Assembly (NCBI GenBank): GCA_949358305.1
Contig: CASHSZ010000121.1
Location: forward strand, 92,501-143,000
Length of the DNA stretch: 50,500 nt
Origin: Strigamia acuminata
Taxonomy: Eukaryota; Arthropoda; Chilopoda; Geophilomorpha; Linotaeniidae
Direction: 5' to 3'
Positions 8,347 through 41,400 of this stretch are shown in pieces (position 1 is the first letter of the stretch; each line of letters begins with the position of its first letter). The translations under genes and the position numbers were made by a program. A model generated the notes under the pieces. That model saw nothing but the letters and a program-made list of their open reading frames with translations. It did no database searches and was not told the DNA's origin.

Positions 8347-8815
8347 CGCAAAAATACCGTATATGGCCCGTAACGGCCCGCCGACGGTCCCGTAACGGTC
8401 CCGTCACGACCCCGTCAACGGCTTGTACGGGCCGTGATGGGGTCGTGACGGGACCGTCGGCGGCCCGTTAACGGACCGTGCGGGCCGTTACGGGATCGTG
8501 ACGGTCCCGTCACGATCCCGTCAACGGCTTGTACGGGCCGTTACGAGATCGTGACGGTCCCGTTGGCGGCTCGTTAACGGCCCGTACAAGCCGTTGACGG
8601 GATCGTGACGGTCCCGTCACGATCCCGTAACGGCTCGCACGGGCCGTTAACGGGCCGCCGACGGTCCCGTGACGGTCCCGTAACGGCCTTCGTTCCCGGA
8701 CTTCGGCTCGCCGACGGCCCGTACGACCTCATGCGGGCCGTTAACGGCCCGTTAACGGGCCGCCGACGGTCCCGTCACGATCCCGTAACGGCCCGTCATG
8801 ATCCCGTAACGGGCT
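8347..8815. repeat. 53-bp CCGTTAACGG minisatellite, first patch
   Basis: Degenerate tandem units contain CCGTTAACGG, GGGATCGTGACGG and GGGACCGTCGGCGG. The orientation changes within the patch. It is the same family as the large arrays at 13.4-22.9 kb and 24.1-41.4 kb. It begins about 100 bp upstream of the 5' exon of paralogue 2. Confidence 0.85.
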
Positions 8816-12969: not shown

Positions 12970-13370
12970 GCCCGGGAATCGCCCTTCCGCCCGTCACCGA
13001 ATTTTGTCAATATCTGATAAATTTCCACAGAATTGCAGCGACATTGTACGGGATATTTCTGCCCGATTTGACGGACTTATGTAAAACATTGCTGAAATTC
13101 CGTGGAAATTTATAAAATATTGACAAAGGTTGGTGACCGACCCACGGCGCGTTGCGGCGCGGTCGGAGCACGCGACCCGATCCCCCCCTCCCCCCGTCCC
13201 CAAAAAACCACGCCTCGAGGAACCCCGAGGTTCGGTTTCCGACCGGGTCGCCTCTTGATCCGACCCGGGGCGCGTCACGGCGCGGTCGAAGGACGGCCCT
13301 CGCCCCCAAAAACCACACTCCGGGTCACGTGGTCTCGCACCCGACTCTCTCAGTTTTCCCGTTACGGGAT
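12895..13370. repeat. Satellite flank module, copy also at about 37447-37905
   Basis: Sequence from GCCCTCCGCGCCCCG through a (TC)n run, an AT-rich block with TTGTCAATATCTGATAAATTT, then the GACCACGTG-containing CpG-rich block in inverse orientation. The same order and nearly the same sequence recur inside the giant inverted repeat at about 37447-37905. Confidence 0.8.
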
Positions 13371-16300: not shown

Positions 16301-19300
16301 CGTTAACGGGCCGTTAACGGCCCGTTAACGGCCCGTTAACGGCCCGCATGAGGTCGTACGGGCCGTTACGGGGTCGTGACGGGACCGTCGGCGGCCCGTT
16401 AACGGCCCGTGCGGGCCGTTACGGGATAGTTACGGAACCGTCGGCGGCCCGTTAACGGCCCGTGCGAGCCGTTACGGGATCGTGACGGGACCGTCGGCGG
16501 CCCGTTAACGGCCCGTGTGAGCCGTTACGGGATTGTGACGGGACCGTCGGCGGCCCGTTAACGGCCCGTGCGGGCCGTTTTCGACCCGTTGCGGCCGTTT
16601 TCGACCCGTTGCGGCCGTTTTCGACCCGTTGCGGCCCGTTTTCGACCCGTTACGGTCCTTGGCCGTAACGGGCCGAAAACGGGAAAACTGAAAAAGTCGA
16701 GTGCGAGACCACGTGACCCGGAGTGTGGTTTTTGGGGACGAGGGCCGTCCTCCGACCGCGCCGTGACGCGCCGCGGGTCGGTCACCAACTTTTGTCAATT
16801 TTTGACAGATTTTCACGGAATTTCAGCGACATTTTACGAGACGTTTCTGCCCGATGGGACGGACTTCTGTAAAACATTGCTTAAAATCCATGGAAATTTA
16901 TCACATATTGACAAAATTCGGTGCAAGTTTTGTCAGAAATTAGGAAAAAACTTTTTTCAAAACTCGTCCAACGCGCCGGTAAATTGAGCGCCCACGTGCG
17001 TCGACAGTGGGCGCTTCAAAACCGCGTGGACACTGTCAGATCTCGGCACAGTTTGATGCGCCCAAATCTAGCAATACTTGCACCGACTTTTGGCAATTTG
17101 TGACAAATTTTCACAGAATTTCGGCAACATTTTACGACACATTTCTGCCCGGTTGGACACATTTCCACAGGTTTTTTGTAAAACGTTGCTAAAATTCCGT
17201 TGAATTTCATCAAAAATTGTGTCAAAAGTCGGTGACGGGCGGAGGGGCGAGCTCCGGGCGCCCGAGAGAGAGAGAGAAAGAGAGAGAGAGGGGACGGCCG
17301 GGGCTCCCGCCAACGGGCGGAGGGGCGAGCCTTGGCGGGTTGGGCGTGCACTATCTAGGCATGTGGGCGCTCGATTTACCGGCACGTTGGACAAGTTTTG
17401 AAAATTTTTTTTTCCTAATTTTTGACAAAATTAGCACCGAATTTTGCCAATATTTGATAAATTTCCACGGAATTTTATCAATGTTTTACAAAAAACCCCT
17501 GGAAATGTGTCCAATCGAGCAGAAATGTCTCGTAAAATATCGCTGAAATTTGTCTAAAATTGACAAAAAATCGGTGCAAGTTTTGCTAGATATTTGCCCG
17601 GATCAAACTGTGCCCGAAACCGCCCGATCTGACAGTGTGCACGCGGGCTGGACGTGCCCACTGTCCCCGCATGTGCACTCGCCGGCGCGTTGGACGAGTT
17701 TAAGAAGATTTTATCAATTTCTGACAAAACTTGCATCGATTTTTTGTCAATATTTGATAAATTTCCCCAGAATTTTAGCAATAAAACCTTTGAAAATGTA
17801 TCCAAAAGAGCAGAAATGTCCTGTAAAATATTGCTGAAAATCTGTTGAAATTCATCAAATATTGACAAAAATCTGTGACGAGCGGAGGGGCGATCCTTTG
17901 GCGGCCGAAAGAGAGAGGGGGGACGGTCGGGGCTCCCGCCGACGGGCGGAGGGGCGAGCCTTGGCGGCCGAGAGAGAGAGAGAGAGAGGACGGCCGGGGC
18001 TCCCGCCGGCGCACTGTCCACGCATGGGCGCGCTCGATTTACTGGCGCGTTGGACGAATTTTAAATTTTTTGTTTCCTATTTCTGACAAAATTTGCACCG
18101 ACTTTTGGCAATTTGTGACAAATTTTCACAGAATTTCGGCAACATTTTACGACACATTTCTGCCCGGTTGGACACATTTCCACAGGTTTTTTGTAAAACG
18201 TTGCTAAAATTCCGTTGAATTTCATCAAAAATTGTGTCAAAAGTCGGTGACGGGCGGAGGGGCGAGCTCCGGGCGCCCGAGAGAGAGAGAGAAAGAGAGA
18301 GAGAGGGGACGGCCGGGGCTCCCGCCAACGGGCGGAGGGGCGAGCCTTGGCGGGTTGGGCGTGCACTATCTAGGCATGTGGGCGCTCGATTTACCGGCAC
18401 GTTGGACAAGTTTTGAAAATTTTTTTTTCCTAATTTTTGACAAAATTAGCACCGAATTTTGCCAATATTTGATAAATTTCCACGGAATTTTATCAATGTT
18501 TTACAAAAAACCCCTGGAAATGTGTCCAATCGAGCAGAAATGTCTCGTAAAATATTGCTGAAATTTGTCTAAAATTGACAAAAAATCGGTGCAAGTTTTG
18601 CTAGATATTTGCCCGGATCAAACTGTGCCCGAAACCGCCCGATCTGACAGTGTGCACGCGGGCTGGACGTGCCCACTGTCCCCGCATGTGCACTCGCCGG
18701 CGCGTTGGACGAGTTTAAGAAGATTTTATCAGTTTCTGACAAAACTTGCATCGATTTTTTGTCAATTTTTGATAAATTTCCCCAGAATTTTAGCAATAAA
18801 ACCTTTGAAAATGTATCCAAAAGAGCAGAAATGTCCTGTAAAATATTGCTGAAAATCTGTTGAAATTCATCAAATATTGACAAAAATCTGTGACGAGCGG
18901 AGGGGCGATCCTTTGGCGGCCGAAAGAGAGAGGGGGGACGGTCGGGGCTCCCGCCGACGGGCGGAGGGGCGAGCCTTGGCGGCCGAGAGAGAGAGAGAGA
19001 GAGGACGGCCGGGGCTCCCGCCGGCGCACTGTCCACGCATGGGCGCGCTCGATTTACTGGCGCGTTGGACGAATTTTAAATTTTTTGTTTCCTATTTCTG
19101 ACAAAATTTGCACAGACTTTTGTCAATTTTTGACAAATTTTCACGGAATTTCAGCAATGGGACGGACTTATGTAAAACATCGCTTAAAATCTGGAAATCT
19201 GTCAAATCTTCTTTAAATTTATGCAAGATATTGGGAAATTTTGGTTTAACTCGTCCAACGGGCCGGTAAATCGAGCGCCCACACGCGCCCACATGCACGT

Positions 19301-22300
19301 CCAACCCGCATGGGCACTGTCACATCGGACGTTTGTTGCGTGCAAAACTTGCACCGACTTTTGGCCATTTTTGGTTAAACTTCCGCACAATTTCTGCCCG
19401 ATTGGACACTGAGGTTCGGTTTCCGACCGGGTCGTTTCTTGTCCGACCCGCGGCGCGTCGCGGCGCGGCCGGAGGACGGCCCTCGTCCCCAAAAACCACA
19501 CTCCGAGTCACGGGTCGCACGGCCAACAGGCCGTGACGGGCCGTAGCGGGTCGAAAACGGGCCGTTAACGGCCCGTTGACGGCCCGTTAGCGGCCCGCAT
19601 GAGGTCGCACGGGCCGTCGGCGAGCCGAAGTCCGGGAACGAAGGCCGTTACGGGACCGTGACGGGACCGTCGGCGGCCCGTTAACGGCCCGTGCGAGCCG
19701 TTACGGGATCGTGACGGGACCGTCGGCGGCCCGTTAACGGCCCGTGCGAGCCGTTACGGAATCGTGACGGGACCGTCGGCGGCCCGTTAACGGCCCGTGC
19801 GGGCCGTTACGGGATCGTGACGGGACCGTCGGCGGCCCGTTAACGGCCCGTGCGACCCCATGCGGGCCGTTGACGGGCCGTTAACGGGCCGTTAACGGGC
19901 CGTTAACGGGCCGTGACGGTGTAAATCGAAAAAATCAACAACCGACAACACGTACATGAAAACGCGTACAACATTCATAGACATTAATCTCGAATCCTGT
20001 TTTTGGTTTTACGCCGTTAACGGGCCGTTAACGGCCCGCATGAGGTCGTACGGGCCGTTACGGGGTCGTGACGGGACCGTCGGCGGCCCGTTAACGGCCC
20101 GTGCGGGCCGTTACGGGATAGTTACGGAACCGTCGGCGGCCCGTTAACGGCCCGTGCGAGCCGTTACGGGATCGTGACGGGACCGTCGGCGGCCCGTTAA
20201 CGGCCCGTGCGAGCCGTTACGGGATTGTGACGGGACCGTCGGCGGCCCGTTAACGGCCCGTGCGGGCCGTTTTCGACCCGTTGCGGCCGTTTTCGACCCG
20301 TTGCGGCCCGTTTTCGACCCGTTACGGTCCTTGGCCGTAACGGGCCGAAAACGGGAAAACTGAAAAAGTCGAGTGCGAGACCACGTGACCCGGAGTGTGG
20401 TTTTTGGGGACGAGGGCCGTCCTCCGACCGCGCCGTGACGCGCCGCGGGTCGGTCACCAACTTTTGTCAATTTTTGACAGATTTTCACGGAATTTCAGCG
20501 ACATTTTACGAGACGTTTCTGCCCGATGGGACGGACTTCTGTAAAACATTGCTTAAAATCCATGGAAATTTATCACATATTGACAAAATTCGGTGCAAGT
20601 TTTGTCAGAAATTAGGAAAAAACTTTTTTCAAAACTCGTCCAACGCGCCGGTAAATTGAGCGCCCACGTGCGTCGACAGTGGGCGCTTCAAAACCGCGTG
20701 GACACTGTCAGATCTCGGCACAGTTTGATGCGCCCAAATCTAGCAATACTTGCACCGACTTTTGGCAATTTGTGACAAATTTTCACAGAATTTCGGCAAC
20801 ATTTTACGACACATTTCTGCCCGGTTGGACACATTTCCACAGGTTTTTTGTAAAACGTTGCTAAAATTCCGTTGAATTTCATCAAAAATTGTGTCAAAAG
20901 TCGGTGACGGGCGGAGGGGCGAGCTCCGGGCGCCCGAGAGAGAGAGAGAAAGAGAGAGAGAGGGGACGGCCGGGGCTCCCGCCAACGGGCGGAGGGGCGA
21001 GCCTTGGCGGGTTGGGCGTGCACTATCTAGGCATGTGGGCGCTCGATTTACCGGCACGTTGGACAAGTTTTGAAAATTTTTTTTTCCTAATTTTTGACAA
21101 AATTAGCACCGAATTTTGCCAATATTTGATAAATTTCCACGGAATTTTATCAATGTTTTACAAAAAACCCCTGGAAATGTGTCCAATCGAGCAGAAATGT
21201 CTCGTAAAATATCGCTGAAATTTGTCTAAAATTGACAAAAAATCGGTGCAAGTTTTGCTAGATATTTGCCCGGATCAAACTGTGCCCGAAACCGCCCGAT
21301 CTGACAGTGTGCACGCGGGCTGGACGTGCCCACTGTCCCCGCATGTGCACTCGCCGGCGCGTTGGACGAGTTTAAGAAGATTTTATCAATTTCTGACAAA
21401 ACTTGCATCGATTTTTTGTCAATATTTGATAAATTTCCCCAGAATTTTAGCAATAAAACCTTTGAAAATGTATCCAAAAGAGCAGAAATGTCCTGTAAAA
21501 TATTGCTGAAAATCTGTTGAAATTCATCAAATATTGACAAAAATCTGTGACGAGCGGAGGGGCGATCCTTTGGCGGCCGAAAGAGAGAGGGGGGACGGTC
21601 GGGGCTCCCGCCGACGGGCGGAGGGGCGAGCCTTGGCGGCCGAGAGAGAGAGAGAGAGAGGACGGCCGGGGCTCCCGCCGGCGCACTGTCCATGGGCGCG
21701 CTCGATTTACTGGCGCGTTGGACGAATTTTAAATTTTTTGTTTCCTATTTCTGACTAAATTTGCACAGACTTTTGTCAATTTTTGACAAATTTTCACGGA
21801 ATTTCAGCAATGGGACGGACTTATGTAAAACATCGCTTAAAATCTGGAAATCTGTCAAATCTTCTTTAAATTTATGCAAGATATTGGGAAATTTTGGTTT
21901 AACTCGTCCAACGGGCCGGTAAATCGAGCGCCCACACGCGCCCACATGCACGTCCAACCCGCATGGGCACTGTCACATCGGACGTTTGTTGCGTGCAAAA
22001 CTTGCACCGACTTTTGGCCATTTTTGGTTAAACTTTCGCACAATTTCTGCCCGATTGGACACTGAGGTTCGGTTTCCGACCGGGTCGTTTCTTGTCCGAC
22101 CCGCGGCGCGTCGCGGCGCGGCCGGAGGACGGCCCTCGTCCCCAAAAACCACACTCCGAGTCACGGGTCGCACGGCCAACAGGCCGTGACGGGCCGTAGC
22201 GGGTCGAAAACGGGCCGTTAACGGCCCGTTGACGGCCCGTTAGCGGCCCGCATGAGGTCGCACGGGCCGTCGGCGAGCCGAAGTCCGGGAACGAAGGCCG

Positions 22301-22975
22301 TTACGGGACCGTGACGGGACCGTCGGCGGCCCGTTAACGGCCCGTGCGAGCCGTTACGGGACCGTGACGGGACCGTCGGCGGCCCGTTAACGGCCCGTGC
22401 GGGCCGTTACGGGATCGTGACGGGACCGTCGGCGGCCCGTTAACGGCCCGTGCGGGCCGTTACGGGATCGTAACGGGCCGTTAACGGGCCGTTAACGGGC
22501 CGTTAACGGGCCGTGACGGTGTAAATCGAAAAAATCAACAACCGACAACACGTACATGAAAACGCGTACAACATTCATAGACATTAATCTCGAATCCTGT
22601 TTTTGGTTTTACGCCGTTAACGGGCCGTTAACGGCCCGTTAACGGCCCGTTAACGGCCCGCATGAGGTCGTACGGGCCGTTACGGGGTCGTGACGGGATC
22701 GTCGGCGGCCCGTTAACGGCCCGTGCGGGCCGTTACGGGATAGTTACGGAACCGTCGGCGGCCCGTTAACGGCCCGTGCGAGCCGTTACGGGATCGTGAC
22801 GGGACCGTCGGCGGCCCGTTAACGGCCCGTGCGAGCCGTTACGGGATTGTGACGGGACCGTCGGCGGCCCGTTAACGGCCCGTGCGGGCCGTTTTCGACC
22901 CGTTGCGGCCGTTTTCGACCCGTTGCGGCCCGTTTTCGACCCGTTACGGTCCTTGGCCGTAACGGGCCGAAAACG
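13371..22975. repeat. Higher-order satellite array, unit about 2.6 kb (one unit 3.7 kb)
   Basis: The marker GTAAATCGAAAAAATC recurs at 13614, 16207, 19921 and 22521, that is at spacings of 2593, 3714 and 2600 bp. Each unit has 53-bp CCGTTAACGG minisatellite repeats, the core of about 95 bp, and AT-rich modules containing TTGTCAATTTTTGACAA-type dyads separated by GC-rich, GA-run-bearing spacers. The long unit contains an extra tandem copy of a 1,015-bp segment (17217 onward repeated at 18232 onward). Identical small frames appear in every unit (for example 14518, 17217, 18232 and 20889), but they follow the repeat and are not taken as genes. Confidence 0.85.
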
Positions 22976-24059: not shown

Positions 24060-25173
24060 GGACTACCGGCGCTCGTTGGCGCCCGTTGTCCCGTGCGGGC
24101 CGTTAACGGGCCGCCGACGATCCCGCAACGGCCCCGTAACGGCCCGTACGGGCCGTTAACGGGCCGCACGAGGTTGGCGAGGCCGCCGCACGGGCCGCCG
24201 ACGGTCCCGTAACGACCCCGTTAACGGCCCGTGCGAGCCGTTAACGGGCCGCCGACGGTCCCGTCACGATCCCGTAACGGCCCGTACAAGCCGTTAACGG
24301 GCCGCCGACGGTCCCGTCACGATCCCGTCACGGCTCGTGCGGGCCGTTAACGGGCCGCCGACGGTCCCGTCACGATCCCGTCACGGCCCGTGCGGGCCGT
24401 TAACGGGCTGCCGACGGTCCCGTCACGATCCCGTCACGGCTCGTGCGGGCCGTTAACGGGCCGCCGACGGTCCCGTCACGATCCCGTCACGGCCCGTGCG
24501 GGCCGTTAACGGGCTGCCGACGGTCCCGTCACGATCCCGTCAACGGCCCGCATGGAGTCGTACGGGCCGTTAACGGGCTGCCGACGGTCCCGTCACGATC
24601 CCGTCACGGCTCGTGCGGGCCGTTAACGGGCCGCCGACAGTCCCGTCACGATCCCGTCACGGCCTGTGCGGGCCGTTAACGGGCCGTTAACGGGCCGTTA
24701 ACGGCCCGTTAACGGCGTAAAACCAAAAACAGGATTCGAGATTAATGTCTATGAATGTTGTACGCGTTTTCACGTACGTGTTGTCGGTTGTTGATTTTTT
24801 CGATTTACGCCGTAACGGCCCGTTAACGGCCCGTTAACGGCCCGTCAACGGCCCGTCAACGGCCCGCAACGGCCCGCACGGGCCGTTAACGGGCCGTCGA
24901 CGATCCCGTCACGATCCCGCAACGGCCCGCACGGGCCGTTAACGGGCCGCTGACGGTCCCGTCACGATCCCGTCACGGCCTTCGTTCCCGGACTTCGGCT
25001 CGCCGACGGCCCGTACGACCTCACGCGGGCCGTTAACGGGCCGTTAACGGCCCGTTAACGGCCCGTTAACGGCGTAAAACCAAAAACAGGATTCGAGATT
25101 AATGTCTATGAATGTTGTACGCGTTTTCATGTACGTGTTGTCGGTTGTTGATTTTTTCGATTCACGCCGTAAC
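24060..25173. repeat. CCGTTAACGG satellite, left arm before the copia insertion
   Basis: 53-bp units plus two copies of the conserved core (from about 24716 and 25074, spacing 358 bp). The first about 250 bp of the arm (23806-24055) is not satellite but a GC-rich sequence with a GAGGAGGAGG run. Confidence 0.9.
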
Positions 25174-25726
25174 TGTAGCTGTGTGGCGCAAAAATATCGC
25201 CGAAATAGGCGATAGGAAGCGTAAAACTGAGTCAAACGCACTTCTAAGTGCGGACAAATGCGCGTGATGCGCGTACGCGAGTTTGAGCGGACTTACGATC
25301 AAATTCGCGTGCACTACACTTATAGAAACGTGTAGTGCCGAACTAAATACAATAGTTAACCAAAAATATAACATTTATTAAGAGAAAACTTACATAATGG
25401 GTCCAGAATCACTGGACAAACACAAGGAAACACACTACCCGTGTGAGCGGCCATTTGTAATGTGCCAGAGACATCTGGTGGCCGAAAATAGAAACAATAA
25501 GTAGAAATACACACAGAATAGAGGATGCATGATGCCAGATGGATAAGACACATCTAAAAGGCATCATGCATTCCCTTTACATAGAAACTAAGGAAAAACA
25601 TAAGAAACAATACTAAATTACCCCGAATAAGAAAAGATAACCGATGGATAATAAAATAAACATTTCAAAGTCATTTCACATCGAAAAACGATTTAAATAA
25701 CTCAAAAGTGGTTCCAAAGTCTAACA
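25174..25726 (-). repeat. 3' LTR of the copia element
   Basis: 553 bp. In element orientation it starts TGTTAGACTTTGG and ends CACACAGCTACA. It contains a hairpin-like GTGCACTACAC ... GTGTAGTGC pair. It looks identical to 31099-31651. Confidence 0.95.
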
Positions 25727-25727
25727 A

Positions 25728-25738
25728 TTCCCTCCTTC
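25728..25738 (-). promoter_or_regulatory. Polypurine tract of the copia element
   Basis: GAAGGAGGGAA in element orientation, followed by one T and then the 3' LTR TG. It is the expected plus-strand primer position. Confidence 0.85.
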
Positions 25739-25774
25739 GATGTAAAATGTCGGTGCTAAACAATCGAAAAAAAG

Positions 25775-28700
25775 TTACTTCGAGACGAAAATCCGAGATA
25801 ATAAATTTCGAAGACGCTCTGAACTGAGCCACTTGGTGAAAATGTCGGATACATTTATCTCACCCGGAATTTTGCGGAGTTCGAAACATCCGGCAATGTG
25901 CCACTCACGAAGCCAGTGAAACTTCACTCGAATATGTTTCGTTTTCGAGTTCTCGATGTCGTTGTTCGTGAACTGAATCGAGGCGAGGGCATCGGAAAAT
26001 ATGATCGGTTTCGATAACCGACGTAAAGGTGGAAACACTTGATAAATACTGTCGAGCCAATAGAGTTCTTTGACGATTTCGACAAGTGCCACAAATTCGG
26101 CTTCCATTGTGGAGCAAGCGACGCTGGTCTGCTTCTTGCAGCTCCAGCCAATGGGCACACTTCCGATGTAAACAATGTATCCGCCGAATGATCTCGATGT
26201 AGCGATGTCGGAGGCCCAAGAGGCGTCTGTGCAACCCCACAGTTGACTCGAATCGCATTTCGAAAGTTCGATGGCGTACTCGCTCGTGTTCGCGACGTAA
26301 CGAAGGACCTGCAGCAAACACTTGATATGGCTCTCGGTGTAGCAGTTGTTGTACTGCGATAATGCGATCACCGAGTACAAAATGTCGGGGCGAGTACGTG
26401 AAGCCAGGAACAATAAAGATCCGACGAGTGATCGATACGGAAAATCCGGAAGGTCGGTGAGCGGTCCCTTGACTAACGTGGTCCCAGGTGTGACTGGCAC
26501 CTTGATGAGCGCGTCAGATGAAACATTAAACTTTTTGAGGAGTTTGTCAATGTAATTGCGTTGAGTCATAAAGACTTTCCCGTCACGACGCTCGAACTCG
26601 ACTCCCAGCAGTTTGGTGATTGGCCCCAGGTCGACAATGTCGAATTTACTCGTGATCAGCTTGAGTATTCGATCCCTGATGTTTTCCGAAGCATAAAATA
26701 AAACAATATCGTCGACGTATACCAGCATAATGGCCGAATGTCCGTAGGCGTACACACAATTACATGCTGGAAACTTTTGAAATCCGAGTTCTGTCAATGT
26801 TTCATTAAGTTTCTGGTACCACATGCGCCCCGACTGGTGAAGACCGTAAAGCGACTTGGTCAACAACCATACGTTGTCGGGCGAGGAACATGTGGCACCA
26901 GCGGGAATCCGCATATAAATCTCGTGGTCAAGGTCGCCGTAGAGGTAGGCACATTTCACGTCGAGGTGCGTGTCCCTCCATCCGAGGAGAATAACCAGCA
27001 GACAAAAGAAGAAACGGATTAGGACAAAATTGACTACGGGACTAAAAACTTCATCGTAGTCAACGCCCATTGTCTGCCGAAATCCTTGGGCGACCAGTCG
27101 AGCACGATATCGGGTAATCTTTCCGGTAATGTCACTTTTGAACTTAAAAATCCATTTGCAACCGAGCACAGTCTTGTCAGGGGGTCTCGGAACCTCCTTA
27201 TAAACGTCTCGTTGCTTGAAAGTCGAAAGTTCCTCGTCGATTGCTTCGGTCCATTTCGGTGCTTCGGGCAATTTCACAGCTTCGGCGTATGTGGCCGGTT
27301 CCCGAAAACACATGTGGACACGAGGAGGCGATGGCGGAGCATATGGCATGTGGTGTTCTAAATTGCCGAAGAAGAAAACGGACTCATCATACGGTATCCG
27401 GTGTGCGAAACAATAAGCGGCGATATCTGTGTGCGACCGCAAGCGGACACCGTGCTCCGGATAATAATAAACGTCGACTTTAATCCTCCCCGGAACCTGA
27501 TCTTTCCGGAGATGCTCTTCTCTCCTCCATCCGCTGAAGGGCGAAACGCCGCCAACAAAACTCCAAGGGCAATGAAGAGCGCGTAAAGGCGCCAAATTAG
27601 GCGTACCCGGAAGTCGGACAGGCAAGGCAGCCGCTTCGTCGAGAAGGTCTTCGTCAAAATCTGAACCCTGTTCAGACATCGCTGCGGTGTCGTCAAGACC
27701 CGGGAGAGATGGGTAGGACATCGAACGCCGTAGATGAGGCAAGCGGGTGGAACGTACGGTCGGAGTAAATTGTCCATGTCCTGCAATGGTCGTAACATTA
27801 TCGGAGCCATCAGCGACGGTAACAGAGCCATCAGCGTCGGTAACAGAGCCATCAGTCGTAGCAGCTAAGCCGTCAGCAGCGGCGATGAGACCATCAGCTG
27901 TAGGAAGAGATGGTGCGAATGAAGCGAAAGACGGAGCACTCGAAGCGACGGAGGGAGCACGACTGGCAATACCATCCTCGTCACTGCTGTCAGCAGAAGA
28001 GTCGTTATCCGAATCGTGACGTCGACGAGGCCAAGGCTGAGTTGGAAAGTTATCACGAAAAGTGACACGTGACGGGGTGTGGCCACGAGCAGGCTCCTCC
28101 ATGGGTGGAGCATTGTCATCCGGATCTGGAACATAAAAGGGCGAGCGCTTAAAGTTCTGCCGTTCATCGATTTGGACGTGAACAGATTCGGTGACGGTGT
28201 TCGTAGCCGGATTCCACACTCGATACCCTCGAGTTCCCGAAGCGTAGCCAACGAGAAATCCTTCCCACGCTCGAGGATCCAGTTTGTTGCGTCCAGGTGC
28301 GGTGAAGTGTACCCAGCACTTGGAACCAATCTTACGAAAATGTCTGACGGAAAGAGCACGCTGGCGCCACAAAATGTATGGGATTTCGTCGTTGAGCTTC
28401 GAATGCGGACTGCGGTTTTTGATATATGTGAACGTCACGGCAAGTTCAGCCCAAAGCGTGTGCGAAAATCCGGTTTCGGAGTTGATGGAGCGGAGATAGT
28501 CGCCCATTGTCCGGTTCAGGCGTTCGGCGACACCGTTCATCTGTGGCGATGCGGGATTGGTCCGTTGAGCAACAATACCCTTGTCGGCAAGAAAACGGTC
28601 AAAATCCCTCGAAATAAATTCTCCTCCACGGTCGGTGCGAATTGTTTTAATCCGGCAATCAGCAATACGTTCAACGCGGGAAACAAAGTCTTTAAACGTA

Positions 28701-30163
28701 GCAAAAACATCGGATTTACGGGCGATCGGGAAAAGCCAGGCGTACCTGGTGGCGTCATCGATAATGGTGAAGGCAAAATTAGCACCGCCGATGGAAGGCA
28801 GTCTCGACGGGCCCCAGACGTCCATGTGAAGCAATTCAAGCGGTTTCGTGGTTGAAGGCGCGGAAATTGGCTTATGTGGAGCACGCGTGGACTTGGCAAC
28901 ACGGCACGTGTTGCAGGAAAGTTCCTGGCGAACAGCAGCTGGATCAAGCCCATAAACCTGGGAGTTAGCCGCTAAAGTCCGCATGGCCTTCGTATGCAGG
29001 TGACCCAGCCTGCCGTGCCACAATCCCGTGGCGTCTGCGACGTTGGCAACCGAAGGATTAACTGGTTTGGGAGGTAATGCTGCGTTTGACTTGGCAACGG
29101 GAGGAGGAGATGCGAGGGCATTGGAATACATCCGGATCTGTTGAGGTTGGGATCCGGGAATAGGAGCAGGACTGGTAGGGAAAAGTGAAGGGACAAGCAA
29201 GGTGTTGGAGGAGACGGGCAAGCGGAAATCGGTCATATTGTCAGCCGACTTCTTCTTAGTCTTGTTGGAAGACTTGGGCAATGCGGGAAAGTCCTCTTCC
29301 TTCGTCACTAGAGTGGTCGGTATCGGAGTCGGAAGTGATGATGAAACAGACGAACTCGAAACATTAGTCGGAGCGGCGAATGGCGAGATGAGCCCATCCA
29401 CGAAATAAAGTCCAGACTTCTGTTTCGCCCGAAGAACACTTAGTTTGATGTCCGTTTCATACGTATGCAATTCCGAGTTGTGAATGTGGATGTGATGTCC
29501 GCATTTATCAATCCGAGAAACCGAGATAAGATTGGCGCCGAAGTCAGGTGCGAATAATACGTCGCGGAGCAATACGGTGCATTCGCAGCCATCGATGAGC
29601 GACTTGACCGGAACGTCACCTTTGCCTGTGACCCTCGAACTGCCCTGGCCTAACTCGATGTTGAACGGGACAACGGAAACAAAGTTCGTAAACCACGCTT
29701 TGACGTGCGAAACGTGGTCGGTGGCCCCACAATCGACAATCCATTCGTGGGACTGGAGAAAATGTACAACCGGAGCTTCGATCACCGGTGGAGCCGACAA
29801 CAGGTAAGCGGCGTCCCTTCGGGGACGAGAAACATCACGGTTTTGACCACCGGATTGCTGCGAACTGTTATTCTGCCGTCGTTTGCTCTTACTGCGGGGT
29901 CGGCCTTGTTGAGACGCGACCGGTTGCGGTTCCTTGCCCTGTTTGCGAGGGCGGGGGCACTTATTCGCGTAGTGGCCGAAAAAGCCGCAATTAAAACAGC
30001 GAACCTGCGAAATCGGACGAGGAGGTCGGGATTGATTGCATCCACGATTGTCCATAGCAAAAGCCGATGTTTCCTTCGTGTACCGATTCCAATTCAAGTT
30101 GGCTCTTGCTGTCTGCATTTTTCCGGAGGAAAATCGGAGATAATGGCGATAATGAGCACGCAT
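25775..30163 (-). CDS. Copia gag-pol polyprotein with an embedded MBD-like domain
   Basis: One open frame runs to the stop at 25775. Numbered from codon 1 at 30214 (a GTG), it has 1,479 codons; the first ATG is codon 18 (30163). The zinc knuckle is C73, C76, H81, C86 (CFNCGFFGHYANKC). Protease D161-C162-G163 stands where DSG or DTG is usual. The integrase zinc-binding set is H400, H405, C434, C437, and the core acidic residues are D465, D528, E564. A Ser/Asp-rich linker with ADGS repeats spans about 735-815. An MBD-like segment lies at about 888-952 (W896, R903, D914, Y916, R926). Reverse transcriptase begins near 985, with YVDD at 1166-1169. RNase H has D1330, E1371 and D1408, followed by KHIRVKFHWLRE. 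All enzymatic cores look intact. Only about 70 residues of Gag precede the knuckle, against several hundred in typical copia elements. Confidence 0.95.
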   Translation of the reverse strand: MRAHYRHYLRFSSGKMQTARANLNWNRYTKETSAFAMDNRGCNQSRPPRPISQVRCFNCGFFGHYANKCPRPRKQGKEPQPVASQQGRPRSKSKRRQNNSSQQSGGQNRDVSRPRRDAAYLLSAPPVIEAPVVHFLQSHEWIVDCGATDHVSHVKAWFTNFVSVVPFNIELGQGSSRVTGKGDVPVKSLIDGCECTVLLRDVLFAPDFGANLISVSRIDKCGHHIHIHNSELHTYETDIKLSVLRAKQKSGLYFVDGLISPFAAPTNVSSSSVSSSLPTPIPTTLVTKEEDFPALPKSSNKTKKKSADNMTDFRLPVSSNTLLVPSLFPTSPAPIPGSQPQQIRMYSNALASPPPVAKSNAALPPKPVNPSVANVADATGLWHGRLGHLHTKAMRTLAANSQVYGLDPAAVRQELSCNTCRVAKSTRAPHKPISAPSTTKPLELLHMDVWGPSRLPSIGGANFAFTIIDDATRYAWLFPIARKSDVFATFKDFVSRVERIADCRIKTIRTDRGGEFISRDFDRFLADKGIVAQRTNPASPQMNGVAERLNRTMGDYLRSINSETGFSHTLWAELAVTFTYIKNRSPHSKLNDEIPYILWRQRALSVRHFRKIGSKCWVHFTAPGRNKLDPRAWEGFLVGYASGTRGYRVWNPATNTVTESVHVQIDERQNFKRSPFYVPDPDDNAPPMEEPARGHTPSRVTFRDNFPTQPWPRRRHDSDNDSSADSSDEDGIASRAPSVASSAPSFASFAPSLPTADGLIAAADGLAATTDGSVTDADGSVTVADGSDNVTTIAGHGQFTPTVRSTRLPHLRRSMSYPSLPGLDDTAAMSEQGSDFDEDLLDEAAALPVRLPGTPNLAPLRALHCPWSFVGGVSPFSGWRREEHLRKDQVPGRIKVDVYYYPEHGVRLRSHTDIAAYCFAHRIPYDESVFFFGNLEHHMPYAPPSPPRVHMCFREPATYAEAVKLPEAPKWTEAIDEELSTFKQRDVYKEVPRPPDKTVLGCKWIFKFKSDITGKITRYRARLVAQGFRQTMGVDYDEVFSPVVNFVLIRFFFCLLVILLGWRDTHLDVKCAYLYGDLDHEIYMRIPAGATCSSPDNVWLLTKSLYGLHQSGRMWYQKLNETLTELGFQKFPACNCVYAYGHSAIMLVYVDDIVLFYASENIRDRILKLITSKFDIVDLGPITKLLGVEFERRDGKVFMTQRNYIDKLLKKFNVSSDALIKVPVTPGTTLVKGPLTDLPDFPYRSLVGSLLFLASRTRPDILYSVIALSQYNNCYTESHIKCLLQVLRYVANTSEYAIELSKCDSSQLWGCTDASWASDIATSRSFGGYIVYIGSVPIGWSCKKQTSVACSTMEAEFVALVEIVKELYWLDSIYQVFPPLRRLSKPIIFSDALASIQFTNNDIENSKTKHIRVKFHWLREWHIAGCFELRKIPGEINVSDIFTKWLSSERLRNLLSRIFVSK

Positions 30164-30214
30164 AAACACTCGAGGCACTAAAGACGTAATCGGAGCACTT
30201 TTCACTCGAAGCAC

Positions 30215-31084
30215 TTCACTAAACGTTGTTAGAAGCGGAATAACCTCGACGGGGAGCCAATGCTAAAATTGGCTAAGAACCTTAGACAAGTGTCCCCCTA
30301 ACGTCCTTTATGACCACCTGGGGCCGCGGGAATGTTAGGTGGCGCAGGGCTCAGCCTTGTCTAAGAATACAAGCACAGCTTGGACGGAATGTCCGAAGGG
30401 CTGTGCCGATACTAATCGGGACCCACTCCAAAAACTTAAAATTAACAAATAAATTCGAAATCTGAAATAAAAAGAAGGAGAAGTTGGTGAATCTGTATGC
30501 ACAGACGTCCCTGTGCACACCGCGCATAAAAAATGCGGAATTCTTCAAAAGATCGCCGACCGATTTCGAAAACCGGGAAAAACTTCTCGAAAATCGCCGA
30601 TACTGTCGCACTCCGGGGTGCAGACAGCGGGTTATGCCCGTTTCTGGATGAAAACGTCGCTCAGACGTTGTCGGAACGTGACAAATGATGAAAATCGGCG
30701 AAAAAATCTGAAAATAAATGAAATTTCCGCAAAAATCGCGAAAAATCGCGAAATTCACGAAAAATTAGAGGGAAAAAAAAGAACAAGACCTTTCCTAGGT
30801 CAATTGTCGCTATCTTGCACAATAAATGCACAAAAAGCAGTGTTTTTAACTCGAAAAACACAAAAAAACAGTGTTTTTAACTCGAAAAACACGAAAAAAG
30901 GTTGAAAAAATTCAAAAATCGACGATTACGACCGCACTCCGGGGTTGTGAACGTCAGAAAGACGTTGTTGACTGCCGGAAATCGTCGAAAATCTGAAAAA
31001 AACAAAAATTTCCGCAAAAATCGCGAAAAATCGCGAAATTCACGGAAAATTAATGGAAAAACGAGGCACTGGTGGCTTTCCAGG
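30215..31084 (-). other. Copia leader without a gag-like frame, with a tandem duplication
   Basis: This 870-bp stretch lies between the primer-binding site and the pol frame, where most of gag should be. It is A-rich and holds a diverged tandem repeat of about 285 bp: the segment with TTTCCGCAAAAATCGCG recurs at about 30724 and 31009, and the flanking CGCACTCCGGGG also recurs. A stem CTTAGACAAG / CTTGTCTAAG sits near 30285-30365. The longest frame (30351-30758) has no Gag features. TTTTAG just before CATTGGC near 30260 could be a splice acceptor. Confidence 0.6.
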
Positions 31085-31096
31085 CCTCTGCTACCA
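31085..31096 (-). promoter_or_regulatory. Primer-binding site matching initiator tRNA-Met
   Basis: TGGTAGCAGAGG in element orientation, two bases after the 5' LTR. It is complementary to the CCTCTGCTACCA 3' end of eukaryotic initiator tRNA-Met, a common copia primer. Confidence 0.85.
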
Positions 31097-31098
31097 CT

Positions 31099-31651
31099 TG
31101 TAGCTGTGTGGCGCAAAAATATCGCCGAAATAGGCGATAGGAAGCGTAAAACTGAGTCAAACGCACTTCTAAGTGCGGACAAATGCGCGTGATGCGCGTA
31201 CGCGAGTTTGAGCGGACTTACGATCAAATTCGCGTGCACTACACTTATAGAAACGTGTAGTGCCGAACTAAATACAATAGTTAACCAAAAATATAACATT
31301 TATTAAGAGAAAACTTACATAATGGGTCCAGAATCACTGGACAAACACAAGGAAACACACTACCCGTGTGAGCGGCCATTTGTAATGTGCCAGAGACATC
31401 TGGTGGCCGAAAATAGAAACAATAAGTAGAAATACACACAGAATAGAGGATGCATGATGCCAGATGGATAAGACACATCTAAAAGGCATCATGCATTCCC
31501 TTTACATAGAAACTAAGGAAAAACATAAGAAACAATACTAAATTACCCCGAATAAGAAAAGATAACCGATGGATAATAAAATAAACATTTCAAAGTCATT
31601 TCACATCGAAAAACGATTTAAATAACTCAAAAGTGGTTCCAAAGTCTAACA
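31099..31651 (-). repeat. 5' LTR of the copia element
   Basis: 553 bp, the same as 25174-25726 in every stretch compared by eye. It begins with TG and ends with CA in element orientation. Confidence 0.95.
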
Positions 31652-31656
31652 GTAAC

Positions 31657-34600
31657 GGCCCGTTAACGGCCCGTTAACGGCCCGTCAACGGCCCGTCAAC
31701 GGCCCGCAACGGCCCGCACGGGCCGTTAACGGGCCGTCGACGATCCCGTCACGATCCCGCAACGGCCCGCACGGGCCGTTAACGGGCCGCTGACGGTCCC
31801 GTCACGATCCCGCAACGGCCCGCACGGGCCGTTAACGGGCCGTCGACGATCCCGTCACGATCCCGCAACGGCCCGTACGGGCCGTTAACGGGCCGCCGAC
31901 GGTCCCGTCACGATCCCGTCACGGCTCGTGCGGGCCGTTAACGGGCCGCCGACAGTCCCGTCACGATCCCGTCACGGCCTGTGCGGGCCGTTAACGGGCC
32001 GTTAACGGGCCGTTAACGGCCCGTTAACGGCGTAAAACCAAAAACAGGATTCGAGATTAATGTCTATGAATGTTGTACGCGTTTTCACGTACGTGTTGTC
32101 GGTTGTTGATTTTTTCGATTTACGCCGTAACGGCCCGTTAACGGCCCGTTAACGGCCCGTCAACGGCCCGTCAACGGCCCGCAACGGCCCGCACGGGCCG
32201 TTAACGGGCCGTCGACGATCCCGTCACGATCCCGCAACGGCCCGCACGGGCCGTTAACGGGCCGCTGACGGTCCCGTCACGATCCCGTCACGGCCTTCGT
32301 TCCCGGACTTCGGCTCGCCGACGGCCCGTACGACCTCACGCGGGCCGTTAACGGGCCGTTAACGGCCCGTTAACGGCCCGTTAACGGCGTAAAACCAAAA
32401 ACAGGATTCGAGATTAATGTCTATGAATGTTGTACGCGTTTTCATGTACGTGTTGTCGGTTGTTGATTTTTTCGATTCACGCCGTAACGGCCCGTTAACG
32501 GCCCGTTAACGGCCCGTCAACGGCCCGTCAACGGCCCGCAACGGCCCGCACGGGCCGTTAACGGGCCGTCGACGATCCCGTCACGATCCCGCAACGGCCC
32601 GCACGGGCCGTTAACGGGCCGCTGACGGTCCCGTCACGATCCCGCAACGGCCCGCACGGGCCGTTAACGGGCCGTCGACGATCCCGTCACGATCCCGCAA
32701 CGGCCCGTACGGGCCGTTAACGGGCCGCCGACGGTCCCGTCACGATCCCGTCACGGCTCGTGCGGGCCGTTAACGGGCCGCCGACAGTCCCGTCACGATC
32801 CCGTCACGGCCTGTGCGGGCCGTTAACGGGCCGTTAACGGGCCGTTAACGGCCCGTTAACGGCGTAAAACCAAAAACAGGATTCGAGATTAATGTCTATG
32901 AATGTTGTACGCGTTTTCACGTACGTGTTGTCGGTTGTTGATTTTTTCGATTTACGCCGTAACGGCCCGTTAACGGCCCGTTAACGGCCCGTCAACGGCC
33001 CGTCAACGGCCCGCAACGGCCCGCACGGGCCGTTAACGGGCCGTCGACGATCCCGTCACGATCCCGCAACGGCCCGCACGGGCCGTTAACGGGCCGCTGA
33101 CGGTCCCGTCACGATCCCGTCACGGCCTTCGTTCCCGGACTTCGGCTCGCCGACGGCCCGTACGACCTCACGCGGGCCGTTAACGGGCCGTTAACGGCCC
33201 GTTAACGGCCCGTTAACGGCGTAAAACCAAAAACAGGATTCGAGATTAATGTCTATGAATGTTGTACGCGTTTTCATGTACGTGTTGTCGGTTGTTGATT
33301 TTTTCGATTCACGCCGTAACGGCCCGTTAACGGCCCGTTAACGGCCCGTCAACGGCCCGTCAACGGCCCGCAACGGCCCGCACGGGCCGTTAACGGGCCG
33401 TCGACGATCCCGTCACGATCCCGCAACGGCCCGCACGGGCCGTTAACGGGCCGCTGACGGTCCCGTCACGATCCCGCAACGGCCCGCACGGGCCGTTAAC
33501 GGGCCGTCGACGATCCCGTCACGATCCCGCAACGGCCCGTACGGGCCGTTAACGGGCCGCCGACGGTCCCGTCACGATCCCGTCACGGCTCGTGCGGGCC
33601 GTTAACGGGCCGCCGACAGTCCCGTCACGATCCCGTCACGGCCTGTGCGGGCCGTTAACGGGCCGTTAACGGGCCGTTAACGGCCCGTTAACGGCGTAAA
33701 ACCAAAAACAGGATTCGAGATTAATGTCTATGAATGTTGTACGCGTTTTCACGTACGTGTTGTCGGTTGTTGATTTTTTCGATTTACGCCGTAACGGCCC
33801 GTTAACGGCCCGTTAACGGCCCGTCAACGGCCCGTCAACGGCCCGCAACGGCCCGCACGGGCCGTTAACGGGCCGTCGACGATCCCGTCACGATCCCGCA
33901 ACGGCCCGCACGGGCCGTTAACGGGCCGCTGACGGTCCCGTCACGATCCCGTCACGGCCTTCGTTCCCGGACTTCGGCTCGCCGACGGCCCGTACGACCT
34001 CACGCGGGCCGTTAACGGGCCGTTAACGGCCCGTTAACGGCCCGTTAACGGCGTAAAACCAAAAACAGGATTCGAGATTAATGTCTATGAATGTTGTACG
34101 CGTTTTCATGTACGTGTTGTCGGTTGTTGATTTTTTCGATTCACGCCGTAACGGCCCGTTAACGGCCCGTTAACGGCCCGTCAACGGCCCGTCAACGGCC
34201 CGCAACGGCCCGCACGGGCCGTTAACGGGCCGTCGACGATCCCGTCACGATCCCGCAACGGCCCGCACGGGCCGTTAACGGGCCGCTGACGGTCCCGTCA
34301 CGATCCCGCAACGGCCCGCACGGGCCGTTAACGGGCCGTCGACGATCCCGTCACGATCCCGCAACGGCCCGTACGGGCCGTTAACGGGCCGCCGACGGTC
34401 CCGTCACGATCCCGTCACGGCTCGTGCGGGCCGTTAACGGGCCGCCGACAGTCCCGTCACGATCCCGTCACGGCCTGTGCGGGCCGTTAACGGGCCGTTA
34501 ACGGGCCGTTAACGGCCCGTTAACGGCGTAAAACCAAAAACAGGATTCGAGATTAATGTCTATGAATGTTGTACGCGTTTTCACGTACGTGTTGTCGGTT

Positions 34601-36010
34601 GTTGATTTTTTCGATTTACGCCGTAACGGCCCGTTAACGGCCCGTTAACGGCCCGTCAACGGCCCGTCAACGGCCCGCAACGGCCCGCACGGGCCGTTAA
34701 CGGGCCGTCGACGATCCCGTCACGATCCCGCAACGGCCCGCACGGGCCGTTAACGGGCCGCTGACGGTCCCGTCACGATCCCGTCACGGCCTTCGTTCCC
34801 GGACTTCGGCTCGCCGACGGCCCGTACGACCTCACGCGGGCCGTTAACGGGCCGTTAACGGCCCGTTAACGGCCCGTTAACGGCGTAAAACCAAAAACAG
34901 GATTCGAGATTAATGTCTATGAATGTTGTACGCGTTTTCATGTACGTGTTGTCGGTTGTTGATTTTTTCGATTCACGCCGTAACGGCCCGTTAACGGCCC
35001 GTTAACGGCCCGTCAACGGCCCGTCAACGGCCCGCAACGGCCCGCACGGGCCGTTAACGGGCCGTCGACGATCCCGTCACGATCCCGCAACGGCCCGCAC
35101 GGGCCGTTAACGGGCCGCTGACGGTCCCGTCACGATCCCGCAACGGCCCGCACGGGCCGTTAACGGGCCGTCGACGATCCCGTCACGATCCCGCAACGGC
35201 CCGCACGGGCCGTTAACGGGCCGCTGACGGTCCCGTCACGATCCCGCAACGGCCCGCACGGGCCGTTAACGGGCCGTCGACGGTCCCGTCACGATCCCGC
35301 AACGGCCCGCACGGGCCGTTAACGGCCCGTTAACGGCCCGTTAACGGCCCGTTAACGGGGCAAAACCGAAAACAGGATTCGAGATTAATGTCTATGAATG
35401 TTGTACGCGTTTTCATGTACGTGTTGTCGGTTGTTGATTTTTTCGATTCACGCCGTAACGGCCCGTTAACGGCCCGTTAACGGCCCGTCAACGGCCCGTC
35501 AACGGCCCGCAACGGCCCGCACGGGCCGTTAACGGGCCGTCGACGATCCCGTCACGATCCCGCAACGGCCCGCACGGGCCGTTAACGGGCCGCTGACGGT
35601 CCCGTCACGATCCCGTCACGGCCTTCGTTCCCGGACTTCGGCTCGCCGACGGCCCGTACGACCTCACGCGGGCCGTTAACGGGCCGTTAACGGGCCGTTA
35701 ACGGCCCGTTAACGGCGTAAAACCAAAAACAGGATTCGAGATTAATGTCTATGAATGTTGTACGCGTTTTCACGTACGTGTTGTCGGTTGTTGATTTTTT
35801 CGATTTACGCCGTAACGGCCCGTTAACGGCCCGTTAACGGCCCGTCAACGGCCCGTCAACGGCCCGCATGGAGTCGTACGGGCCGTTAACGGGCCGCCGA
35901 CGGTCCCGTCACGATCCCGTCACGGCCCGTGCGGGCCGTTAACGGGCCGCCAACGGTCCCGTCACGATCCCGTCACGGCTCGTGCGGGCCGTTAACGGGC
36001 CGCCGACAGT
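31657..36010. repeat. 833-bp higher-order satellite repeats, left arm after the copia insertion
   Basis: The core marker GTAAAACCAAAAACAGG recurs with alternating spacings of about 358 and 475 bp (32031, 32389, 32864, 33221, 33697, 34054, 34529, 34886, ...). That gives a dimeric unit of 832-833 bp repeated about four times with almost no differences. Such near-identity implies recent unequal exchange or conversion. Variant cores (GGGCAAAACCGAAAACAGG) appear at 35357 and in the right arm. Confidence 0.9.
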
Positions 36011-37925
36011 CCCGTCACGATCCCGTAACGGGCTGAAAACGGGAAAACTGAAAGAGTCGGGTGCGAGACCACGTGACCCGGAGTGTGGTTTTTGGGGGCG
36101 AGGGCCGTGACGCGCCGTGACGCGCCCCGAGTCGGATCAAGAGGCGACCCGGTCGGAAACCGAACCTCGGGGTTCCTCGAGGCGTGGTTTTTTGGGGACG
36201 GGGGGAGGGGGGGGGGGGGGATCGGGTCGCGTGCTCCGACCGCGCCGCAACGCGATGTGGGTCGGTCACCAACTTTTGTCAATTTTTGACAAATTTCCAC
36301 GGAATTTCAGCAACATTTTACGAGACGTTTCTGCCCGACTAGACACGTTTCCGCAGGTTTTAGCAAAACAACGTTAAATTCTGTGGAAATTTATCAAATG
36401 TTGACAAAATTCTGTGCAAGTTTTGTCAGATACTTACTTACTTACGATATAAACTCGAACGTCGTCCATCGACACTCTCAACATTCCACCGGACATTTTC
36501 CGGAAGAGTTTGTCCCGATCGGGACCACGCCTCGACGAAGCCCGGGACCCGGTTTCCGACCGGGTCGTTTTTGGCCCAAGTCACGGCGCGTCGCGGCGCT
36601 TTCGGAGCACGCGACCCGATCCCCCCCTCCCCCCGTTCTCAAAAACCACGCCTCGACGAAGCCCGGGACCCGGTTTCCGACCGGGTCGTTTTTGGCCCAA
36701 GTCACGGCGCGTCGCGGCGCGTTCGGAGCACATGAACCGATCCCCCCTCCCTCCCGTCACAAAAACCACGTTTTAGCGAAACCCTTGACCGGTCACAAAA
36801 CCCACCGAACACCGAAAAGCAACGAACAAAACGCGCTCGGTCGCACGAACTACTCGGCCAAAACAACATCCGCAAATTCCGCATCACAGTCGCGATCAAC
36901 GAAACAACGTATAGGCCGCCGTAATGTTAAAAAGCGGGACCCTTTCGCCCCCGACAAAATCCGCACACATACCCCAAGGTTAAGCGCCGACTGGTCCCCG
37001 TCCGGCCGCGTCCGGGCGTCGCGTCCGCACGCCTGCTTTGCCTATCCTTCGGAAGCGAGTGCACCCGCAAAATCCGCACTTTGGGAGTGACTATTCCTCG
37101 GATTCCGGCCGGACCAAACTCTTCCGGAAAATGTCCGGGGGAATGCTGAGAGTGCCGATAGACGACATTCGATTTTATGTCGTGGGTTTTTGTGCGGTTT
37201 GCGCCGTGTTTATTATTCGTACGAGATTTGGTATTTTCGCAGGGTTGTTGTCGCGCGAGATTCATCGGGGTAAAGCGAGTTCATCAACGACCTCGCCGGT
37301 GAATGTTGCTAAAAATCTGTGCAAGTGTTGTCAAATATTGCCGTGATTCGATGGAATTTTTGTCAGACATTGGGAAATTTTTTTTGACTTGTCCAACGCG
37401 CCAGTAAATCGAGCGTCCACACGCGCCCACATGCGTGAACAGTGCACTCGCCCTCCGCGCCCCGTCGGCGTAGGCGCCGGCCGTCCCCCCTTTCTCTCTC
37501 TCTCTCTCTCTTCCGCCCGGGAATCGCCCTTCCGCCCGTCACCGAATTTTGTCAATATCTGATAAATTTCCACAGAATTGCAGCGACATTGTACGGGATA
37601 TTTCTGCCCGATTTGACGGACTTATGTAAAACATTGTTGAAATTCCGTGGAAATTTATAAAATATTGACAAAGGTTGGTGACCGACCCACGGCGCGTTGC
37701 GGCGCGGTCGGAGCACGCGACCCAATCCCCCCCTCCCCCCGTCCCCAAAAAACCACGCCCCGAGGAACCCCGAGGTTCGGTTTCCGACCGGGTCGCCTCT
37801 TGATCCGACCCGGGGCGCGTCACGGCGCGGTCGGAGGACGGCCCTCGCCCCCAAAAACCACACTCCGGGTCACGTGGTCTCGCACTCGACTCTCTCAGTT
37901 ATCCCGTTACGGCCCTTGGCCGTAA
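36011..37925. repeat. Centre of the giant inverted repeat: flank modules in mirror order
   Basis: From the left: the GACCACGTG block, a G-run, an AT-rich dyad module, and two copies of a CCCGGGACCCGGTTTCCGACC block. Next come the 285-bp module ending TTAA at about 36984 and a short unique stretch. The right half then has inverted or related modules, ending in the inverse GACCACGTG block at about 37860-37890. No gene is supported. Confidence 0.75.
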
Positions 37926-40900: not shown

Positions 40901-41400
40901 GCCGTGACGGGATCGTGACGGGACCGTCGGCAGCCCGTTAACGGCCCGTACGACTCCATGCGGGCCGTTGACGGGATCGTGACGGGACCGTCGGCAGCCC
41001 GTTAACGGCCCGCACGGGCCGTGACGGGATCGTGACGGGACCGTCGGCGGCCCGTTAACGGCCCGCACGGGCCGTGACGGGATCGTGACGGGACCGTCGG
41101 CGGCCCGTTAACGGCCCGCACGAGCCGTGACGGGATCGTGACGGGACCGTTGGCGGCCCGTTAACGGCCCGCACGGGCCGTGACGGGATCGTGACGGGAC
41201 CGTCGGCGGCCCGTTAACGGCTTGTACGGGCCGTTACGGGATCGTGACGGGACCGTCGGCGGCCCGTTAACGGCCCGCACGGGCCGTTAACGGGGTCGTT
41301 ACGGGACCGTCGGCGGCCCGTGCGGCGGCCTCGCCAACCTCGTGCGGCCCGTTAACGGCCCGTACGGGCCGTTACGGGGCCGTTGCGGGATCGTCGGCGG
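37926..41400. repeat. CCGTTAACGG satellite, right arm (inverted)
   Basis: The same repeats run in the opposite orientation. The inverted core (ATTCATAGACATTAATCTCG) recurs near 38196, 38617, 39091, 39449, 39922, 40399 and 40756, at spacings of about 421, 474, 358, 473, 477 and 357 bp. The outermost 1,368 bp of the arm mirror 23806-25173 exactly in length. Confidence 0.9.

Follow-up and report, generated by a model that had tools for sequence, protein, structure and literature searches.

Introduction

Copia elements that carry a methyl-CpG-binding domain (MBD) are reportedly known from arthropods. De Mendoza, Pflueger and Lister are said to have described such elements in 2019 (Genome Res 29:1277-1286, doi 10.1101/gr.243774.118) and to have found their MBDs functional. 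The MBD of the CopiaMBD element of the centipede Strigamia maritima reportedly binds CpG-dense methylated DNA; young copies are said to lie in CpG-dense regions, and a gene-body bias is said to occur in a spider. Chromoviruses (Ty3/Gypsy) are alike in that a chromatin-reading domain stands beside the integrase of an LTR element, and in 2008 Gao et al. reportedly described the chromodomain, with integrase, as thought to direct integration to heterochromatin. However, chromoviruses belong to another superfamily than Ty1/Copia and read a histone mark, not a DNA mark. The DNMT-carrying retrotransposons of dinoflagellates and charophytes (PMC5890265) have likewise acquired a component of the host's apparatus for cytosine methylation, but carry the writer and not the reader.

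The element described here lies in a stretch of 50,500 nucleotides from Strigamia acuminata (contig CASHSZ010000121.1, positions 92,501 to 143,000 of the forward strand), referred to below as the window. It is a new CopiaMBD member in a new species, and its kind is already described; the initial annotation, which held that there was no described example of an MBD in Copia, was wrong in this respect, as arthropod Copia with a functional MBD were reportedly published in 2019. What the window element shares with the CopiaMBD elements, as reportedly described, is the MBD within a Copia polyprotein and the genus Strigamia (there S. maritima), and the S. acuminata families share with them a placement of copies in CpG-dense DNA relative to other LTR elements. 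What differs here is the species, the chromosome-level view with its enrichment on Y and unplaced contigs, and a possibly unreported subclade with Val, Ile or Trp at the methyl-contact position. The data, which come from a further centipede species and extend to whole chromosomes, support both the uptake of a DNA-mark reader into the integration polyprotein of a retrotransposon lineage and the occurrence of CopiaMBD copies in CpG-dense DNA.

Structure of the element

The features of the element and of the surrounding satellite are given in Table 1. The two 553-bp LTRs are 100% identical, with TG...CA termini, and because of this identity and of the 5-bp target duplication the element is considered young. 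The probable primer-binding site, TGGTAGCAGAG, is presumably complementary to animal initiator tRNA-Met at its 3' end. Within the polyprotein frame the first GTG is at 30214, giving 1479 aa from there to the end at 25775. The order of domains is that of Ty1/Copia, namely PF22936, PF13976, PF00665, PF25597 and PF07727, with the integrase ahead of an RVT_2-type reverse transcriptase (RT). The termini are also those of Ty1/Copia, with TG...CA LTRs, a 5-bp target duplication and the probable initiator-tRNA primer site.

Table 1. Features of the Copia element and of the adjoining satellite, in window coordinates.
Feature	Position	Strand	Details
Whole Copia element, LTR to LTR	25174..31651	-	LTR pair, TG...CA ends, GTAAC on both sides
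5' LTR	31099..31651	-	553 bp
3' LTR	25174..25726	-	553 bp
Target-site duplication GTAAC, left copy	25169..25173	.	
Target-site duplication GTAAC, right copy	31652..31656	.	
Probable primer-binding site TGGTAGCAGAG	31086..31096	-	Just inside the 5' LTR, read from the sequence
Polyprotein open frame, stop to stop	25775..30262	-	1495 aa
CCHC zinc knuckle, weak	29954..30001	-	PF00098, 15.9 bits, below the cut-off of 20.8
Pol_BBD (Pol polyprotein beta-barrel)	29498..29743	-	PF22936, 61.7 bits
GAG-pre-integrase domain	28889..29062	-	PF13976, 35.1 bits
Integrase core	28544..28849	-	PF00665, 45.7 bits
SH3-like retroviral polymerase domain	28151..28360	-	PF25597, 84.2 bits
MBD segment	27359..27553	-	PF01429; Pfam match proper 27398-27532
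Reverse transcriptase (RVT_2)	26492..27208	-	PF07727, 194.8 bits
CpG-dense satellite with periods of 53 bp and more, edge included, left of insertion	24088..25173	.	
CpG-dense satellite, right of insertion	31652..36031	.	
Further CpG-dense satellite blocks	8367-8812, 13359-13956, 15811-16655, 19525-20327, 22178-22949, 37925-41321		

No gag family is found in the window ORF by Pfam scan of the frame, and between the ORF and the 5' LTR (30263-31098) the longest frame has 137 codons, none reaching 150. Retrotran_gag_2 is present at the start of the 1658-aa frame of a related family B member (L194), which is 88% identical to the window copy in the MBD segment (27.2 bits, cut-off 27), and in P0002, a relative from outside this genome (96.3 bits). 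The window family thus seems to lack gag within a lineage that bears it, and the abundant family A, to which the window copy belongs, may rely on gag from relatives.

The MBD segment

The initial annotation placed an MBD-like segment at about residues 888-952 of the frame, between integrase and RT. The segment does lie between the integrase/SH3 region and the RT, and the coordinates are exact (27553 down to 27359 on the minus strand, which the annotation had left unstated). PF01429 matches the whole ORF at residues 895-939, scoring 22.9 bits where the curated cut-off is 21 (E=6.5e-5), and the profile check on the 111-aa segment alone gives 27.8 bits against the same cut-off (E=1.9e-6). R903, D914, Y916 and R926 are in place in the alignment row as had been claimed, and W896 is taken from the same row; the spacings of 7 from Trp to Arg and 12 from Asp to Arg presumably equal those of MeCP2 in its own numbering. 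By profile match and residues the domain of the window copy is read as an MBD with predicted methyl-CpG contacts.

Among solved structures, MBD2 comes closest in sequence, though the match is weak (E=0.0027), and in the alignment to it the loop between Arg and Asp has one additional residue in the window copy. The representative of family E also has MBD2 as its nearest solved structure (E=1e-8), with Val opposite Tyr. As compared with the host proteins MBD1, MBD2 and MBD3, the element domains have in common the Pfam MBD, MBD2 as nearest structure, the arginine fingers and the Asp. They differ in being embedded in pol, in the additional loop residue of the window clade and in the loss of Tyr in one subclade. 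The same segment also matches F-actin capping protein weakly, at 12.5 bits, which is under the cut-off of that family.

Relatives in the genome and constraint on the MBD

The S. acuminata genome searched comprises 237,517,015 bases in 157 contigs. Matches to the 111-aa segment, of which 150 are listed from 1242 candidates so that counts are lower bounds, can be grouped into four families. Family A, at 99-100% identity to the segment, includes at least 36 matches, at least 34 of them identical when the window copy is included. Family B (77-95% identity) includes at least 49, family C (69-74%) at least 57 and family D (55-58%) at least 8. PF01429 itself gives 150 listed matches from 1092 candidates, the best listed at 50.3 bits. 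The 11 of these that were examined (L018-L028) are all Copia frames with the MBD at the same place; the insertion that the initial annotation had proposed to look for in related Copia is thus shared by sister families. No host MBD gene was recognised among the 150 PF01429 matches listed of 1092 candidates, and one short-frame candidate that was examined (L193) gave no clear host gene.

MBD-less Copia elements are also abundant, with 150 RVT_2 matches listed of 2633 candidates. Pfam scans of ten MBD-less representatives (L040-L049) showed no MBD upstream of the RT in any of the ten, and one pair of listed MBD and non-MBD matches lies within 3 kb. In the integrase-SH3 tree of 23 rows, 14 MBD rows are split from 9 MBD-less rows by a 100/100 branch. 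MBD-bearing Copia form one clade in this tree of S. acuminata rows, which uses 14 of the 21 available MBD rows and leaves out L042 as too short. Because rows were chosen for having or lacking an MBD, MBD-less members within the MBD clade could be missed.

R903, D914 and R926 are invariant in 18 of 18 aligned rows, and since these rows come from divergent families, the resemblance to an MBD exceeds chance. Ka/Ks of the MBD is 0.04-0.19 in 9 of 11 comparisons, Ks being saturated in the other two. The linker before the MBD gives 0.11-0.42, the MBD being lower in all eight comparisons computable for both. Values below those of the MBD are seen in turn for SH3 and in most comparisons of the RT. The MBD is under purifying selection, yet less constrained than the enzyme.

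Protein searches reached beyond this genome. With the MBD region of the window as query no protein was found at E<=0.001 among 330 candidates. The corresponding region of family E gives 34 proteins at E<=1e-5, and one of these, P0002, lists PF01429; it has a complete Copia set and an MBD at 31.1 bits, with Tyr kept.

The Tyr-less subclade

The residue two after Asp, Y916 in the window copy, is taken to be the methyl-group contact of MBD proteins. Of the 18 aligned rows, 11 keep Tyr at this position, whereas three have Val, three have Ile and one has Trp, and the five Val, Ile or Trp rows of the integrase-SH3 tree form one subclade (100/99). Among families represented by one member each, E (L018) and G (L021) have Val and F (L019) has Ile. 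Literature searches, directed at other points, returned no report of Tyr loss in the MBDs of CopiaMBD elements, and the subclade is possibly unreported so far.

Satellite and methylation context

The element had been described as lying in very CpG-dense satellite. The 480 bp that follow the 3' LTR bear this out with a density of 15.2 CpG per 100 bp, and satellite is present on the other side too. Periods of 11 and 53 bp occur among the repeats listed, built around the palindrome CCGTTAACGG, and the satellite 18-mer GGCCCGTTAACGGCCCGT has 7114 + 7240 occurrences genome-wide, the reversed control having 0. The satellite has a CpG o/e of 1.7 and a deficit of TpG/CpA, values that would be surprising for DNA methylated in the germline.

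PF00145 gives 11 exon-wise matches in the S. acuminata genome (11 of 11 candidates scored). Judged by eye from position and motifs, these would come from five loci, four of them DNMT1-like and one DNMT2-like. No DNMT3 is seen among the 11 matches, an exon-wise search being able to miss one. For S. maritima, PMC4244043 gives four Dnmt1 genes and one Dnmt3 as well as an unusual CpG-rich fraction of the genome, and PMC7343188 places 0.758 of 719 transposable elements (TEs) in the highly methylated group.

Insertion sites

Target duplications of 5 bp are present in 12 of the 13 window-family copies for which both ends were seen (15 tried), and these copies are accordingly separate insertions. CpG per 100 bp was determined in flanks of 370 bp beyond the 3' end. 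The 56 MBD flanks comprise 16 of family A (the window copy together with 15 from the remaining 35 on the list, without copy L057, whose LTR end was not found), 20 of E, 10 of G and 10 of F. Control flanks are from three MBD-less Copia families (20, 10 and 10) and from 20 random sites on the 11 large contigs. All sets were kept whole, including two identical MBD-less flanks, three random flanks with a common repeat, three MBD flanks with satellite in common and two more pairs of MBD flanks that overlap in sequence.

Median CpG per 100 bp is 6.89 in family A, 5.95 in E, 4.32 in G and 8.11 in F, as against 2.57, 2.30 and 1.35 in the MBD-less families and 2.84 at random sites. MBD flanks (56) are higher than MBD-less flanks (40) at p=2.2e-8, in a comparison within Copia, and higher than the 20 random sites at p=8.9e-5; MBD-less flanks do not differ from random sites in CpG density (p=0.51). 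By family, G shows no difference from random sites (p=0.13). Of the three tested Tyr-less families, E and F have insertion sites similar in CpG density to those of the Tyr family A, and G has little bias. Families with a Tyr-less representative are biased like the Tyr family in flank CpG density (p=0.14 between them). Because the site preference is similar in Tyr-less families, CpG or GC content may suffice for part of the lineage.

In a model with GC and GC squared no CpG preference beyond GC is detected (MBD effect 0.22 CpG per 100 bp, p=0.65), although MBD and MBD-less flanks with a GC of 0.30-0.45 still differ (p=0.0037, 48 flanks). CpG density does not peak where the copies are inserted (0-100 bp vs 200-380 bp, p=0.40); its elevation is a property of the region and has no centre at the site. 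The median CpG o/e at window-family sites is 1.28. As these flanks are not CpG-depleted, germline methylation is not visible in the sequence, a gauge by which methylation of young DNA can be neither established nor dismissed.

At the scale of chromosomes, contigs were set against the chromosome table in PMC10556566, by which the Y-sized contig is C13 and the X is C12; the contig of the window is outside the 11 chromosomes. Y and unplaced contigs make up 9.9% of the assembly. Among listed copies, thinned within 100 kb, they hold 13/35 of family A, 11/43 of B, 6/44 of C, 4/7 of D, 10/57 of E, 6/23 of F and 1/30 of G, and 6/130 of non-MBD Copia. The window family differs from non-MBD Copia at Fisher p=2.5e-6 among these listed, thinned copies. 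In 1-Mb bins along the chromosomes the two lists of MBD matches correlate (rho 0.32), and correlations of MBD with non-MBD Copia density are slightly negative (-0.08, -0.14), in both cases among listed matches. The targeting proposed in the initial annotation is supported in part: flanks are denser in CpG than those of MBD-less Copia and the Y and unplaced contigs are enriched, but the effect is inseparable from GC (p=0.65).

Interpretation

The reading that we prefer, at a probability of roughly 80%, is that the window contains a young, recent CopiaMBD insertion, and that the MBD with integrase binds CpG-dense (methylated) DNA and steers or tethers copies there. An MBD like the host MBD2 type would stand in or beside integrase within the integration complex and would bind CpG-dense, probably methylated, DNA. 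The complex, so tethered, would bring new copies into CpG-rich, TE- and satellite-rich DNA, and such placement could limit damage to host genes. We infer that the domain binds DNA, that this binding is methylation-dependent, and that the bias is set during integration rather than left behind by the disappearance of other copies.

Base composition could account for the same sites if the domain binds CpG or GC-rich DNA regardless of methylation, its arginine fingers reading the guanines of CpG; this is a possibility to be taken seriously, if clearly the lesser one. It draws on a whole subclade that has Val, Ile or Trp for Tyr with both arginines and Asp kept, on the CpG-dense sites of the Tyr-less families E and F, on sites that are CpG-rich and not depleted, and on GC alone explaining the CpG difference. 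However, Tyr is kept in the window family and in 11 of the 18 rows, family G with its Val has little bias, and the S. maritima MBD described earlier reportedly favours methylated DNA. A narrower form of the idea concerns the Tyr-less subclade, in which the arginines are kept under purifying selection and two of three tested families lie in CpG-dense DNA. Its domain may have turned from reading methyl-CpG to reading CpG as such, a proposal that we hold to be rather doubtful; if true, targeting would no longer be tied to host methylation. Sister families with Tyr, Val, Ile and Trp in one genome provide a natural series for the question of whether methylation, or only CpG/GC, guides integration.

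The MBD could also be without a targeting role, recruiting or disarming host silencing proteins, with the CpG-rich location due to selection against copies elsewhere. The bias is regional and not centred at the insertion point, as would suit such a history, and non-recombining, heterochromatic DNA retains more TEs in general. MBD-less Copia, however, are not enriched on Y and unplaced contigs (6/130 listed vs 9.9% of the assembly), and the window-family copies are young, at least 34 including the window copy having an identical 111-aa segment, which leaves little time for selective removal; we consider this explanation unlikely. That the resemblance to an MBD is due to chance is exceedingly improbable. 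The score of the window copy is modestly over the cut-off (22.9 vs 21 bits) and the same segment has the sub-cut-off match to F-actin capping protein at 12.5 bits, but sister families reach up to 50.3 bits among the matches listed, the family E representative matches MBD2 at E=1e-8, the outside relative P0002 has an MBD at 31.1 bits, and the domain is under purifying selection.

Additional observations

The best seven listed PF01429 matches score 46.8-50.3 bits; the five of them that were examined (L024-L028) are Copia frames, some broken, and two of the five are on the Y-sized contig C13. The second match in the family E protein search, P0003, has no Pfam MBD. Its residues from about 475 to 535 are alignable by eye to the MBD without the Arg/Asp set, and the segment is possibly a decayed or repurposed MBD. 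On contig C6, at least 15 family C matches in both orientations are packed into 0.27 Mb (15.35-15.62 Mb). A spacing of exactly 5,088 bp recurs in four pairs of them, and the cluster suggests a segmental duplication of nested elements.
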